Assembly (NCBI GenBank): GCA_027069135.1
Contig: JALXFE010000576.1
Span: 1-36,620 of the forward strand
Reading direction: 5' to 3'
DNA: 36,620 nucleotides
From: Thermoanaerobaculia bacterium
GTDB lineage: Bacteria; Acidobacteriota; Thermoanaerobaculia; Multivoradales; JAHZIX01
The translations under genes were made by a program, and so were the position numbers. The notes below the pieces were generated by a model that was not told where the DNA came from, ran no database searches, and saw only the letters and a program-made list of their open reading frames with translations. Positions 27,551-34,522 of this stretch are shown here, in pieces; the first letter of the stretch is position 1; every line of letters begins with the position of its first letter.

Positions 27551-28771
27551 CTAGCCGAAGTCGTCGAAGAGGATGTTCTCCGGCTCAACGCCCATGCTGT
27601 CGAGCATCTTCATACAGGCGTCAAGCATCAGCGGTGGGCCGCAGAGGTAATACTCGATGTCCTCCGGCGCCGGGTGATCTTTCAGGTAATTGTCCAGGAC
27701 TACCTGGTGGATGAAGCCCTTGTAGCCCTCCCAATGATCCTCCGGCTGAGGCTCGGACATGGCCATATGCCACTCGAAGTTCGGGAAGTCCTTGGCGATA
27801 GAATCGAAATCCTCGATGTAAAAAGCTTCCCTCAAGCTCCGGGCTCCGTACCAGAACGTCACCTTACGGTCCGTGTTGAGCCGCCGGAACTGGTCGAAGA
27901 TGTGGGAGCGCATGGGTGCCATGCCCGCACCGCCGCCGATAAAACACATTTCGTTGTTCGTTTCCCGGGCAAAGAACTCACCGAAGGGCCCGGAGATGGT
28001 CACCTCGTCTCCGGGCTTGAGGCTGAAGATGTAGGAAGACATCTTCCCCGGCGGCACATCCGGCTGCCGCGGCGGCGGAGAAGCTACCCGGACGTTGAGC
28101 ATGATGATGCCTTTCTCCTCCGGGTAACTGGCCATGGAGTACGCTCGGGTGACATCCTCATCGACCTTCGACACGTAACGCCAGACATCGAATCGATCCC
28201 AGTCCGCCCGATACTCCTCCTGAACGTCGAAATCCTTGTACTCCACGACGTGGGGAGGGCATTCGATCTGAATATAGCCTCCGGCGCGAAACGGAACCTC
28301 TTCACCCGGGGGTAACTCCAGCACCAACTCCTTGATGAATGTGGCGACGTTGTCGTTGGAGCGTACTTTGCACCGCCATTTGCGAATGCTGAAGATCTCC
28401 GGCTCGACTTCGATCTTCATATCCGACTTGACCTTGACCTGACAGGAGAGGCGACAACCTTCCCGGGCCTCGCCGCGGCCGATGAAACCCTTTTCCGTGG
28501 GCAACATAGCACCGCCGCCTTCGAGGACATGCACCTTGCAGACCCCACAACTCCCCATTCCTCCACAGGCGGAGGGAATGAAAATCTTGTTGTCCGCCAG
28601 GGTGTTCAGGAGACTGGAACCGGACTGTACGGTGATCGCCTTGGATTCGTCATCGTTGATGAGAATCCTGACGTCACCGCTGGCGACCAACTTGCTCTTG
28701 GCCACCAACAAGATCGTCACCAAGGACAAGATGACGACGGTAAACATGAGCACGCCGAGTGCAATCGTCAT
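27551..28771 (-). CDS. nqrF: Na+-translocating NADH:quinone reductase subunit F
   Basis: A 406-aa subunit that takes electrons from NADH. An N-terminal membrane helix (about 4-24) is followed by a 2Fe-2S ferredoxin domain with C69, C75, C78 and C110, matching Cys70/76/79/111 of the Vibrio protein. The flavin reductase part has R-A-Y-S-M-A-S-Y-P (209-217) for [16 protein letters not shown], and the NADH site [14 protein letters not shown], with the C-terminal YYLCGPPLM and the ending LFDDFG. It is the last gene of the operon, 45 bases after nqrE. Confidence 0.97.
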
Positions 28772-28816: not shown

Positions 28817-29434
28817 CTATAGCTGGATGCCGCCGAAGGCCATAAAGCCGATGGCCATCAGGCCGGCAATCATGAAAGTGAGGCCTAGGCCACGCAGGGC
28901 CGGTGGAACGTTGCTGTAGCGTAGGCGCTCACGGATGGAAGCCATGGCCACCACTGCCAGGAGCCAACCGACCCCGTTGCTGAAGCCAAAAACCACACTC
29001 TGGCCGAAATCATAATCCCGCTCCACCATCCACAGGGAGGCGCCCAAGATGGCGCAATTCACTGCGATGAGGGGTAGGAAGACCCCCAGAGCGTTGTACA
29101 AACTGGGAACGTAGCGGTCCAGGAACATTTCTACCAACTGGGTCATCGCAGCGATGGTACCGATATAGCACAGGAATCCCAGAAACGAGAGATCGTATTG
29201 CCCGAGGCTCGGATGGACCCAGGCCAGGGCACCGTCCTTGAGCAGATATTGGTAGATCAGGTTATTCGCCGGTACGGTCACCGAGAGGACGAAGACCACC
29301 GCCAGACCCAACCCCAAGGCCGTCTCGACCTTCTTGGAGACCGCCAAGAATGAACACATTCCCAAGAAAAAGGCCAAGGCCATATTCTCGACGAAGACCG
29401 CTTTGACGGCGAGGCTCAGATATTCCTCGAGCAT
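28817..29434 (-). CDS. nqrE: Na+-translocating NADH:quinone reductase subunit E
   Basis: A 205-aa six-helix membrane subunit. The cysteines in [10 protein letters not shown] (C27) and in [10 protein letters not shown] (mid-protein) are those that with NqrD hold the intramembrane iron centre, which NqrM helps to assemble. [14 protein letters not shown] at the N-terminus is highly characteristic. Length is as in Vibrio. The gene starts three bases after the nqrD stop. Confidence 0.97.
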
Positions 29435-29437
29435 GGT

Positions 29438-30061
29438 CTAGTCCTCCTCCACTTGCTCGGGTTTCCAAGTTCTAAGGAGCCAGATGAACATCCCTATGAT
29501 GAAAAATGCTGCCGGAGAGAGCAGCATGAGCCCGTTGGGCTGATACCAACCGCCGTCCCTCACCAGGGGAAACACCGTAACCCCGAAGAGCTTACCGGCC
29601 CCGAGGAGCTCACGTATAGTCGCCGTTCCAATGAGTACCACGGAGTATCCAAGCCCGTTGCCGATACCATCGAGTACGCTCAGCCAGGGACCGTTCTGCA
29701 TCGCGTAAGCTTCCGCTCGACCCATCACGATGCAATTCGTGATGATCAATCCCACGAAGACCGACAGCTGCTTGCTGATGTCGAACAAAAAGGCCTTGAG
29801 GACCTGGTCCGCGACGATCACCAAACTAGCGATGATCGTCAGCTGGACGATGATGCGGATGCTGCTTGGAATTCCGTTGCGCACCAGGCTCACGAAGAAA
29901 TTCGAGAAGGTCAGGACCGCGATGAGGGCCGCGGACATGACGACCGAGGTCTCGAGCTTCGACGTGACCGCTAGAGCTGAGCAGATTCCCAGCACTTGCA
30001 AGGCGATGGGATTGTTGTTGAAGAGCGGATCGATCAGCACATCCCGACTTGATTTGGCCAT
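29438..30061 (-). CDS. nqrD: Na+-translocating NADH:quinone reductase subunit D
   Basis: A 207-aa membrane subunit, homologous to NqrE with inverted topology. It has [23 protein letters not shown] with the iron-centre Cys27, and [13 protein letters not shown] with the second cysteine. The C-terminus is short and charged ([11 protein letters not shown]). Its start overlaps the nqrC stop by one base (TGATG). Confidence 0.97.
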
Positions 30062-30843
30062 CAGGCGGCCCTCCTAAGCTCGCGAAACGTGTCGAAGTAC
30101 TCGCCAAAGCCCTGATCACTGAGCCAAAAAGCGAGGAGGTTCGTCACTCCCCGCGAAGTGATGGTCGCTCCGGAGAGGCCGTCGACTTGATAAGGGTCCT
30201 CCGAGGCCGGGCCGGCGGGGCCTTTGACCACCTTGATCCGGACTTCGCCATCGGCACCATAGATCTTGCGACCGGGCCAGAGGGCCTTCCAATTGGGGTT
30301 GTCGACCTCACCACCTAAACCCGGTGTCTCCTTATGCTCGTAAAAAGTGAGTCCCTCGATCGTCTCCATATCTCCCCCCACGGCGACGAAGCCATAGAGG
30401 GCGCCCCACAATCCCTGGCCTTCGATCGGAAGAACGAGTTTCTTCAATTCGCCGCCCTCGCCGACCAGTTTGTAGACCACGGCCTGGTTGGCGACCCGTT
30501 TGATCAACGCCGGGTTGGAATCCACTTCGAAGCTTCGGGCGGGGTTCCGGGCCATCTTGCGTTGATCGACGGAATCAGGATCGATATCCGGCACTTCCTG
30601 CCCCGTCTTCAGATCCACCACCACCGCCTCGAAGGAGGCGAACCGCCGGGCCACTTCGTCTGCCGCGATATCTTCGCCTTCCTCGAGAAGCCCCGCTGCA
30701 AGCAGTACATTGCACTGCCGGTCCAGGGTCAGATTTTCATCCTGCCGGGATTTCAGGGTCACCGCCGCCGAGGTCACCAGGACTGAACAGACCAGGCAGA
30801 TCGCTGCGGCGAAACCTAGGGTGTACCACGCGCTACGCGGCAT
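30061..30843 (-). CDS. nqrC: Na+-translocating NADH:quinone reductase subunit C
   Basis: A 260-aa subunit with one N-terminal membrane helix (about 8-30) and a periplasmic FMN-binding domain. The covalent FMN site is D-G-L-S-G-A-T, with Thr227 corresponding to Thr225 of Vibrio NqrC; ApbE attaches the flavin. Other family segments are [14 protein letters not shown] and [16 protein letters not shown]. The start lies 11 bases inside the end of nqrB, implying translational coupling. Confidence 0.97.
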
Positions 30844-32062
30844 ATCGGGCCCTCCTACGCTTGATGTTCGCCTGAACGACGTAATGGTCGATGAAGGCGG
30901 CGAAGAGGTTCATGAAGAGAATGGCCAGCATCATGCCTTCCGGAAAGGCCGGATTCACGACGCGGATCAGGATCGCCAGGATTCCTATGAAGAATCCGTA
31001 AATCCAACGGCCGACGTTGGAATGGGCCGCGGAAACCGGATCCGTGGCCATGAACACCGCCCCGAAGGCCCAGCCCCCGAGAACAATGTGCCAATGGAAG
31101 GGAACGTTGAGCAACGGATTGGTATCCGAACCCACAGCGTTGAGAAGCAATGTCATCGCGAAGCTTCCGATCACCAACCCCGACATCACCCGCCAGGAAC
31201 CGACGCGGGTGAGAATGAGGATGGCGGCACCGATCAGGCAGGCTAAAGCCGAGGTCTCTCCCATCGAACCCGGCACGAGGCCCAGAAAGGCGTCCCACCA
31301 TGAGACGTGCTCGGATGCGAGAGCCGCTGGCCCAGCCTCCGCCGCCCGGGCCAGCCAGGTCGCCCCGCTGTAGCCGTCGACGTTGGTTTGTGCCGCGACC
31401 CAGACTTTGTCTCCGGAGATCTGCCCCGGGTAGGCAAAGAAGAGAAAGGCGCGGGCGGTGAGGGCGGGATTCAAAAAATTCATCCCTGTGCCGCCGAAGA
31501 TTTCTTTGCCGATGACCGTTCCGAAAGCGATGCCGATGGCCACCTGCCAGAGGGGAATCGTCGGTGGGAGGATCAGCGGGAAAAGCATCCCCGTGACCAG
31601 GAAGCCCTCGTTGATCTCATGCTTGCGAGCCACCGCGAAGAGGGTCTCGCAATTTCCCCCGATGGCGAAGGTGACGAGCAGGACCGGCAAATAGTAGAGA
31701 GCACCGTGGATCCCACAGGCCAGGAGGTTGGTCGGATCGAAGGCTCCCTCCCCCATGAGCTTCGTAAACAACGCCGTCTGCCAATTATCCAGGGGCAACG
31801 CCCCCCCGGCGATGGCCCGGTGGGCTTGCAGGCCGGTGTTGTACATCGCCATCAGGATCGCCGGCACCAGGGCCACGACGACGACAGCCATCATCCTCTT
31901 GAGATCGAGGGCGTCGCGCACGTGGGAGGGTCCTCGGGTGACCTCCCCGGGAGTAAAAATGAAGGAATCCGTCGCTTCGTAGAGTGGGTGGAGCTTCTCC
32001 AGCTTGCCGCCCTTTTCGAAGAGCTTCGCCTGTTTGTCGAGGAGCGCTCGAAGAGCTTTCAT
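30833..32062 (-). CDS. nqrB: Na+-translocating NADH:quinone reductase subunit B
   Basis: A 409-aa multi-helix membrane subunit that carries covalent FMN, riboflavin and part of the sodium path. The FMN site S-G-A-T is at 232-235 (Thr235, equivalent to Thr236 in Vibrio). Conserved segments include [36 protein letters not shown] and [27 protein letters not shown]. The N-terminal 55 residues are cytoplasmic. Its start overlaps the nqrA stop by one base. Confidence 0.97.
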
Positions 32063-33429
32063 CAGCCTTCCTTCTCGATAGTGGTCAAGACGTCACGCAG
32101 CTTCGGGCCCCAATCGGTCTTGCCCGGGCAGACGAAGGTGCAAAGAGCCAGATCCTCTTCGGCGAGCTCCAAGCAACCGAGCTCTTCGGAGCGCTCGATA
32201 TCACCGACGTAGAGAGCGCGCAGGAGGAACGACGGCATGATGTCCATGGGCATGATCCGCTCGTACATCCCGATGGGGACCATGGCTCGACCGGAACCGT
32301 GGGTCGTCGTGGTGAAATCATACTTACGTTGAGGAGCCAGGGCCGAGAGATAGGCACTGGCGGTAGAGAATTTCTGGGAACCTGCCCCGAGCCAGCCCAG
32401 GAACTCTCGCCGTCGATCCTCCCGGATCACGGAGATCTGCTGGTGATAGCGGCCCAGGTATCCCAACACCTCGCCCGAAGCCTGACGGCCGGAGAGAACG
32501 GAGCCGGAGATCGCCCGCAGATCGCCGTCTTCCACCTGGCCTTCCAGGAGATCGTCGACGGAGGCTCCGAGGCGGGTTCTAAAAAGCTGCGGCGAGCGAA
32601 CCGGGGGGCCGGCGATGGCGACGACCCGATGGACGTCGAGCTCGCCGGTGGCGAAGAGGGTACCGATGGCGGCGACATCCTGGTACCCGAGGTGCCAGAC
32701 CCATTTCTTGCGGTCCACGGGATCCAAGGTGTGGATGTGAAGCCCGGCGGTCCCCGACGGATGCGGTCCGCTGAACTCCTCGACCTGGGCACCGTCGTCC
32801 GTGGGAATCGAAGCACCCGCCGCCTTGCACAGGTACACGGTGCCGTCGGTCAGCTTACCGAGGGCTTGGAGGCCCCGGCGGAAATCCTCTTCGCGGCCCT
32901 CCAAAACGAGGCTCGGATTCGGTGCTAGGGGCTCGGAGTCGGCGGCGGTGACGAAAATCGACTTCGGTGAGGTGGCCGGATCCGCCGTGCGTCCGAAAGG
33001 TCGAGCCCGCAGGGCTGTCCACAGGCCGGACTCCAAGAGGAGGTCTCGGACCTGATCTCGGCTGAGGGTGCTCACATCTTTGCCGGAGAAATGCTCGAAG
33101 TCCTGGGAATCCTGAACCTCTCCGGACCTCTCGCGATCGTCCAACTCGATGACCAGCGACTGGAAAGCGCGCCGGGCTCCCCGGTTGACGGCGACGACCT
33201 TACCGGCGGCCGGGGCCGTGAAGCGCACGCCGGGGATCTTCTTGTCCTCAAATACGAGCTGTCCCCGCCGGACGACATCCCCCTCCGCGACGTGCATCGT
33301 CGGCTTCATGCCGATGTAATCCTCGCCCATCAGCGCGACCCGGCGCACCGGCTTGGCGTCGGAGATCTTTTGCTCCGGCTGGCCGAGAATCGGAAGGTCC
33401 AACCCTTTACGAATCTTGTGTAGGCCCAC
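32062..33429 (-). CDS. nqrA: Na+-translocating NADH:quinone reductase subunit A
   Basis: A 455-aa peripheral cytoplasmic subunit, first gene of nqrABCDEF. The start is GTG 33429 ([16 protein letters not shown]), with a modest AGGAA upstream. Typical segments are [44 protein letters not shown] with the barrel-sandwich fold near the N-terminus, [18 protein letters not shown], and the C-terminal [22 protein letters not shown] followed by [17 protein letters not shown]. Length is close to the 446 aa of the Vibrio protein. The 5-prime leader and upstream region contain a CRP-type operator. Confidence 0.97.
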
Positions 33430-33696: not shown

Positions 33697-33714
33697 TTGT
33701 GAAGTTTGTCACAA
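33697..33714. promoter_or_regulatory. CRP/FNR-family operator (perfect TGTGA-N6-TCACA)
   Basis: TTGTGAAGTTTGTCACAA is a perfect inverted repeat with TGTGA at 33698-33702 and TCACA at 33709-33713, exactly the CRP consensus with a 6-base spacer. It lies in the 481-bp gene-free region between divergent nqrA (about 270 bases away) and the GNAT gene (about 200 bases away), so it could act on either. No convincing -35/-10 pair was found nearby. Apart from this site the region 33430-33910 shows no gene. Confidence 0.6.
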
Positions 33715-33910
33715 ATCGATCCACAGCGAAAGAATCGGATCGTGGACCAAGGCCCGTCGAATCTGCTGGATAGCTCTGTCAAATCGGACTCCCGCCTCCC
33801 GAGCGTGGCTCGACTTCTGATGTGAGCTGCTATACCTTCCCTCGAAATGCTCGAATCTTCCGCGGTTCTCTTCCTCTCTTGTAGCCAGCTGATCTGGTGG
33901 GGCCTGGCTC

Positions 33911-34522
33911 ATGGATAGCGACTCCGAGCTCGTGCTTCCGCCTACCCTGCAGACCCGGCGACTCACCCTTCGCCCGCTGCGGCCGGAGGATGAGACGGCG
34001 ATTTTCTCCTATGCATCGAATCCGGAAGTGGCTCGCTGGACCCTCTGGGAGCCCCATAAGAGCCTCGAAGACAGCCGAGCCTTTATCGCCGACTATGCCA
34101 TCGCCAACTACCGCCAGCAAGTCCCTGACCCCTACGGAATCGTCTTGCGAGACGAGCCGGAGCATGTCCTCGGAACGGTAGGCTGCCATTGGGCTTCTCA
34201 GCTCCACCTGACGATGGAGGTTGGTTTCGCTCTCGCCCAGGAATACTGGGGTCGGGGCTTGGTCACCGAAGCCAGCTGGGCGGTACTGTGTTTCGCCTTC
34301 TCGATCTGTCGGCCGAACCGGATCCAGGCCCGTTGCCATCAAGACAATCTATCGAGCGGCCGGGTTCTGACCAAACTCGGGATGCGGTCGGAGGGAGTGC
34401 TGCGCTGCGCCGCCTGCAAGGCGTCGGAAGTCTGGGATGTCGAGCTTTTTTCGCTGATTCGGAAGGATTGGCAGAGGTATCTGGAGAGCCGGCCGGAGGG
34501 GCCACCGGGAAAAGCCCTCTGA
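33911..34522 (+). CDS. GNAT-family N-acetyltransferase (RimJ/RimL-like)
   Basis: A 203-aa acetyl-CoA-dependent acetyltransferase. LQTRRLTLRPLRPEDETAIF at the N-terminus and SNPEVARWTLWEPHKS are typical of the RimJ/RimL branch, which acetylates N-terminal amines or small molecules. The acetyl-CoA loop is Q-E-Y-W-G-R-G-L (110-117), followed by V-T-E-A and a C-terminal N-L-S-S-G-R-V-L-T-K-L-G-M. Length is slightly above the usual 180 aa owing to N- and C-terminal tails. It is a single gene with its own terminator; the substrate is unknown. Confidence 0.92.
   Translation: MDSDSELVLPPTLQTRRLTLRPLRPEDETAIFSYASNPEVARWTLWEPHKSLEDSRAFIADYAIANYRQQVPDPYGIVLRDEPEHVLGTVGCHWASQLHLTMEVGFALAQEYWGRGLVTEASWAVLCFAFSICRPNRIQARCHQDNLSSGRVLTKLGMRSEGVLRCAACKASEVWDVELFSLIRKDWQRYLESRPEGPPGKAL

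Follow-up and report, generated by a model that had tools for sequence, protein, structure and literature searches.

A predicted operator of the redox-sensing repressor Rex upstream of the nqr operon in a Thermoanaerobaculia bacterium

A palindrome upstream of the sodium-pumping nqr operon of a Thermoanaerobaculia bacterium is, with high confidence, predicted to serve as an operator for Rex, a redox-sensing repressor. It lies at positions 33,697–33,714 of the window, the whole 36,620-nucleotide stretch of contig JALXFE010000576.1 that was analysed, and its presence there as a genuine, conserved regulatory site was confirmed. The preliminary description had read the same palindrome as a CRP-type site. 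Judged from the motif and its distribution, the regulator at nqr is almost certainly Rex rather than a CRP-type protein.

The predicted Rex operator (ROP) TTGTGAAGTTTGTCACAA, to which no strand is assigned, reads exactly TTGTGA-AGTTTG-TCACAA in the window and TTGTGACAAACTTCACAA on the nqr strand. It is located in an intergenic region of 481 bp and 57% GC, between nqrA and a divergent GNAT acetyltransferase gene (33,911–34,522, plus strand). The palindrome is separated from the nqrA start by ~268 bp (276 bp from centre to start), and its centre from the acetyltransferase start by ~205 bp. No other zero-mismatch instance of TGTGA-N6-TCACA occurs in the window. When up to two mismatches were allowed, six matches were found, the palindrome and five others with two mismatches each, which is chance level (6.63 expected). 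Markov models derived from the window predict 0.006–0.016 copies of the 10-base core in the whole window and ~4e-6 to 7e-6 copies of TTGTGA-N6-TCACAA in the intergenic stretch, in keeping with the earlier statement that a palindrome of this kind is unlikely there by chance. That the palindrome is a product of chance without function can be given next to no weight. The 10-base core alone is expected 1.2–3.1 times in a genome of such size and composition, but the congener G003, whose flanks have diverged, has the identical 18-mer at the same place before nqrA, and none of 1200 shuffled nqrA upstream regions contained a site at ≤2 mismatches.

The exact match to the CRP core noted in the preliminary description stands, but the extended bases of the palindrome fit Rex better. 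TTGTGAANNNNTTCACAA, or TTGTGAAW4TTCACAA, is the consensus operator of Rex, an NADH/NAD+-sensing repressor, in the available text of four publications (PMC6391272, PMC2883068, PMC5355995, PMC5317091). The window site has one mismatch to TTGTGAANNNNTTCACAA. This single departure falls in the right half-site, which reads TTGTGAC on the nqr strand; a TTGTGAC half is also present in the DNase-footprinted ROP at nuoA1 of S. avermitilis (PMC5355995, available sections). Scanning the window alone with the Rex pattern at ≤3 mismatches gave one match, a match count also reached by 29 of 100 shuffles; the match in the window has one mismatch.

Across the 7.17-Mb host genome, TGTGA-N6-TCACA occurs at five sites against the expected 1.2–3.1 (Poisson p 0.008–0.20), which by itself points weakly to a genome-wide excess of the 10-base core. 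The case against chance for this set rests more on two flanking bases, because the core search did not demand them. The outer T/A, a T before TGTGA, is present in 10/10 half-sites of the five sites (p 6e-8), and the inner A after TGTGA in 8/10 (p 5e-5). With the reversed pattern as control, TTGTGAANNNNTTCACAA at ≤1 mismatch recovered the same five sites and no control matches. The extended pattern CTTGTGAANNNNTTCACAAG at ≤3 mismatches gave nine sites, five with zero to two mismatches and four with exactly three, against four for the reversed control, a figure that is the control total at ≤3 mismatches with no split by mismatch number. The host genome carries a sharply bounded set of five Rex-type sites.

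Besides the site upstream of nqrA, a second precedes actA, its centre 72 bp before the start. The three genes after it encode a multihaem cytochrome c, a protein with Qrc-like molybdopterin and 4Fe-4S regions, and an NrfD-type membrane protein, a gene order that we take to be that of alternative complex III (act). The third site is followed by genes for a class V aminotransferase (PF00266) and then phosphoglycerate dehydrogenase (TIGR01327, above cut-off). A unit of class V aminotransferase and NADH-dependent phosphoglycerate dehydrogenase is bound by Rex in Caldicellulosiruptor bescii (PMC6391272, available text), so that the pair in the host, an operon common to the two Rex sets, provides an independent target match. 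The fourth site (C260:8316-8333) lies ~60 bp upstream of rex itself, a distance measured to the HTH domain. The fifth (C180:12128-12145, or L015:5129-5146) is near a leucine-rich-repeat gene. It is a perfect Rex-type palindrome without a clear respiratory target, the nearest genes encoding the leucine-rich-repeat protein and a convergent mscL. A sequence resembling a tRNA 3' end follows this site, and ARAGORN found no tRNA gene in that locus.

A search with Pfam PF06971 turned up one rex gene in the host genome (C260:8116-8256, minus strand). The host Rex protein scored 216.8 bits on NCBIfam model NF003995 (cut-off 126), and its best solved match was the sequence of 5zz5/7wb3 (E 6e-44), which is Rex of T. 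maritima (PMC8836258). Of the 12 residues that the accessible part of that paper lists as contacting DNA in the T. maritima protein, nine are identical in host Rex. Arg48 and Lys49, the two key base readers, are among the nine; the differences are at contact positions 34, 43 and 52. Of the NAD-site residues checked, 6/7 are identical in the two proteins.

Conservation of the sites was assessed in a family set of four genomes and an order set of 72. The site is found upstream of nqrA at ≤2 mismatches in 4/4 family genomes, as the identical 18-mer in G003 and as TTGTGACAAAATGCACAA, with two mismatches, in G001 and G002. A match to nqrA was obtained in 44 of the 72 order genomes, that of G014 being very weak. 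Among the nqrA loci fetched, the best 30 of 46 matches, 15 have an nqrA-proximal site (≤2 mismatches, within 500 bp). These counts support the earlier suggestion that sodium-pumping respiration is the likely target. The 15 siteless loci comprise seven of genus g23, which is without rex, and eight others (G021, G032, G034, G035, G037, G038, G039 and G040; 8/23 loci outside g23). Seven of these eight genomes have rex, so nqr is not always part of the Rex regulon. Three named nqrA relatives of 56–64% identity (L085–L087; Acidobacteriia bacterium UBA6623, a Hydrogenedentota MAG and a Deltaproteobacteria MAG) showed no site at ≤3 mismatches.

The other sites of the host differ in how widely they recur. 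Of the 30 best-matching actA loci, each from a different genome, 25 have a site within 400 bp, a count made without a shuffled control. The siteless actA loci are those of G019 (with 65 bp of upstream sequence only), G029, G032, G033 and G034; G031 and G066 have the actA site and no detected rex. The aminotransferase site is found in three of the four family genomes (G000, G001 and G003). At rex, 4 of 31 loci (host plus 30 relatives; 3/30 in the relatives) carry a site at ≤2 mismatches.

Sites and rex are distributed together across the order. Rex-type sites at ≤1 mismatch occur in 43 of the 72 genomes, with 90 sites in all against three reversed-control matches, and rex was detected in 42. 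Sites are present in 38/42 rex-positive and 5/30 rex-negative genomes (Fisher p 1.4e-10) and, when genus g23 is left out, in 38/42 and 4/9 (p 0.005), these p values treating related genomes as independent and hence overstating independence. The genomes having sites without a detected rex are G020, G031, G032, G044 and G066, three of which are only 70–86% complete. Those with rex and no sites are G011, G012, G013 and G065, in which, except for G013, the rex match is weak (E 1e-9 to 3e-8).

Genus g23 (G043–G063) keeps nqrA in 19/21 genomes and an ActA-like gene in 21/21, and has rex in none of the 21. CRP-type HTH domains, found in 55/72 genomes of the order, are nearly absent from it as well, with none in 17/21 and a weak match in four. 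It is apparently a genus without these redox regulators. One of its genomes, G044, has a single Rex-type site despite the absence of rex.

Further Rex-type sites were seen beside other genes in relatives. Of the 90 sites in the order, neighbours were read for those in fetched loci, among the sites listed as far as G042. A site with one mismatch in G020 (L070:1501-1518) lies immediately before atpB, the gene for the ATP synthase A chain; this genome is 86% complete and no rex was detected in it. The atp operon of Streptomyces has been reported as a Rex target (PMC5355995, available text). Perfect sites in G035 and G036 of genus g18 (L082:1501 and L083:1168) precede a ferredoxin/flavodoxin-reductase-like gene (Pfam NAD_binding_1), and in G002 a one-mismatch site (L058:3726-3743) precedes an aldehyde dehydrogenase gene by ~370 bp. 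Another, in G003 (L053:3490-3507; G003:C19:654989), falls within a TauD-like gene and may be due to chance. Neighbours are uncertain for C180, G003:C19:654989, L069, L071, L073, L074, L076, L079, L080 and L081, the simple ORF picker erring on strand in GC-rich DNA.

The preliminary description had proposed a CRP/FNR-family regulator as the binder. Such a protein acting at 33,697–33,714, either alone or in competition with Rex, appears very unlikely to us. Its 10-base core does match the CRP core, sharing both core bases and half-site spacing with the E. coli CRP site TGTGA-N6-TCACA, and four CRP/FNR-type proteins of the host genome exceed the Pfam cut-off. One of these, L019, has an R-E-x-x-S-R helix, which resembles that of CRP. 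ArcR, a CRP/FNR protein of S. aureus, has also been reported to bind in front of genes treated there as Rex targets (PMC2883068, available text), and secondary binding by one of the host proteins may occur here. The search of the genome for CRP/FNR genes and of relatives for a conserved site upstream of nqrA, both proposed in advance as checks, gave positive results, so these two tests could not separate CRP from Rex, and nor does g23, given its near lack of CRP-type HTH domains.

What separates them is the composition and company of the sites. The E. coli CRP consensus has the inner bases TGTGAT...ATCACA, and its inner T is present in 0/10 host half-sites, which always have A or C at this position and in eight cases the Rex inner A. 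The outer T, invariant in the host set, is likewise that of Rex. Unlike a CRP set, the host sites include one carried by rex, and the co-targets are respiratory or NAD(H)-linked. Orthologues were traced for L019, one of the four CRP/FNR paralogues, and clear ones were found besides the host only in G003 and G066 (53–57% identity), far fewer than the genomes with sites. Five genomes (G017, G018, G027, G028 and G029) have CRP-type proteins and neither rex nor sites. Two others have rex and sites with marginal CRP-type proteins: G010 (three sites, best CRP-type E 5e-4) and G040 (one site, E 3e-5, below cut-off). None of nine CRP-type matches in the host is on a site-bearing contig, whereas rex is. 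As the main regulator, a CRP/FNR protein is disfavoured by the motif positions and by the distribution of L019 orthologues. An FNR-type site, TTGAT-N4-ATCAA, was also considered and does not fit the palindrome by eye.

The presumed target of the predicted Rex operator is a complete nqrABCDEF operon on the minus strand, as assigned with NCBIfam models. Its first gene is nqrA (32,062–33,429, with a GTG start at 33,429; NF003759, 644 bits, cut-off 505), followed by nqrB (30,833–32,062; NF003756), nqrC (30,061–30,843; NF003749), nqrD (29,438–30,061; NF006777), nqrE (28,817–29,434; TIGR01940) and nqrF (27,551–28,771; TIGR01941). At the gathering threshold, the window contained no Rfam match that would indicate an RNA element in the nqr leader, and no tRNA was found in it.

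Either flanking gene had been put forward as the regulated one. A homologue of the acetyltransferase accompanies the nqr site in the congener G003 only, 1 of 14 relatives' loci with the site, and is missing from the locus DNA examined in the other 13, which suggests that the target is probably nqr. We consider it unlikely that the Rex operator serves the acetyltransferase, be it instead of nqr or besides it. The divergent arrangement is kept in the congener, and by the centre-to-start distances given above the operator is somewhat nearer to the acetyltransferase than to nqrA. In addition, the sole sigma-70-like match of the intergenic region, TTGTCA-N18-AAGAAT (33,706–33,735, plus strand), is directed toward this gene and overlaps the operator. 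It is a consensus match only, with one found against 0.2 expected in shuffles, and in the nqr direction the same consensus scan of this region returned nothing. In the genus of the window the acetyltransferase could, through this overlap, be affected by Rex. Beyond the genus, the absence of its homologue from most site-bearing nqr loci argues against it, as does family f2, where a promoter-like pair is directed from the operator to nqr in 7/7 genomes.

The position of the predicted Rex operator relative to the nqr promoter may differ between families. In all seven f2 genomes, TTGGNN-N17/18-[AC]A[AG]AAT follows the operator toward nqr, with 5–7 bp between operator and −35 element. In the family of the window, alignment of the four genomes showed, in every case, CAAA[AC]T inside the operator, preceded at a distance of 17 nt by the hexamer TTTNNC. 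The corresponding candidate elements in the window are a −35 hexamer TTTCGC (33,726–33,731, minus strand) and a −10 hexamer CAAACT (33,703–33,708, minus strand), each with weak consensus and no chance control. The promoter pairs of families f1 and f2 were first picked by eye in the alignments and then measured, likewise with no chance control. The −10 element of nqr may therefore lie within the operator in the family of the window, where bound Rex would cover it. A −10 element at this position would also, less certainly, account for the departure of the TTGTGAC half-site from the Rex consensus.

The proposed host regulon shares several features with known Rex systems. The 18-bp palindrome TTGTGAANNNNTTCACAA is the Rex operator of Streptomyces, Staphylococcus and Caldicellulosiruptor, and there, too, rex has an autoregulatory site. 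Rex of S. avermitilis targets nuo, atp, cyd and ndh2 (PMC5355995, available sections), among them operons for respiratory NADH dehydrogenases and for ATP synthase, and the loop of Rex (YdiH) and Ndh in Bacillus subtilis (cited in PMC2883068, in the part available) is an NADH dehydrogenase loop of a like kind. The host differs from these regulons in that its NADH dehydrogenase is the Na+-pumping Nqr, its quinol side is alternative complex III, and its strong sites number only five.

Rex control of Rnf has been described in Desulfovibrio (Ravcheev 2012, cited in the accessible text of PMC4215793). The host Nqr subunits match Rnf models too in the NCBIfam search and, given how closely Rnf and Nqr are related, we found no nearer precedent for the link to nqr. 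Nqr transfers electrons from NADH to quinone, and Rnf uses ferredoxin; the Desulfovibrio system differs from that of the host in electron partner and in lineage. In the literature searched, whose reach did not extend to the Ravcheev 2012 survey, we did not find Rex with nqr or alternative complex III as targets, and the available portions of PMC5317091 and PMC4215793 do not connect Rex with alternative complex III. That Rex regulates respiratory NADH dehydrogenases is already known (PMC5355995, available sections), and we make no claim to a first report for nqr or act.

By analogy with studied Rex proteins, a Rex dimer carrying NAD+ would occupy the operator at low NADH/NAD+ and block transcription of nqrABCDEF. 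As NADH builds up, for example under oxygen limitation, it would displace NAD+ and Rex would be released, leading to more Na+-translocating NADH:quinone reductase. The nqr genes would probably be switched on in this way when NADH accumulates. As Nqr uses up the very NADH to which Rex responds, the two would form a homeostatic feedback loop. The same Rex probably also controls alternative complex III, the aminotransferase/phosphoglycerate dehydrogenase operon and its own gene.

On balance, we favour a combined reading in which Rex would make a single NADH-controlled unit of both ends of the respiratory chain, Nqr and alternative complex III. On this reading, which we hold with some reservation, the operator would have absorbed the nqr −10 box in the family of the window and would stand just ahead of the −35 element in f2, and the regulon would be missing in g23, the rex-less genus that nevertheless keeps nqr and act-like genes.

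A perfect CRP core is contained in the Rex operator, which sets a general trap for the reading of such palindromes. Replacing CRP with Rex shifts the predicted signal at nqr to NADH/NAD+, instead of cAMP or of oxygen sensed via CRP/FNR. For a poorly studied order known mainly from draft genomes, the predicted sites would define a compact and testable redox regulon.
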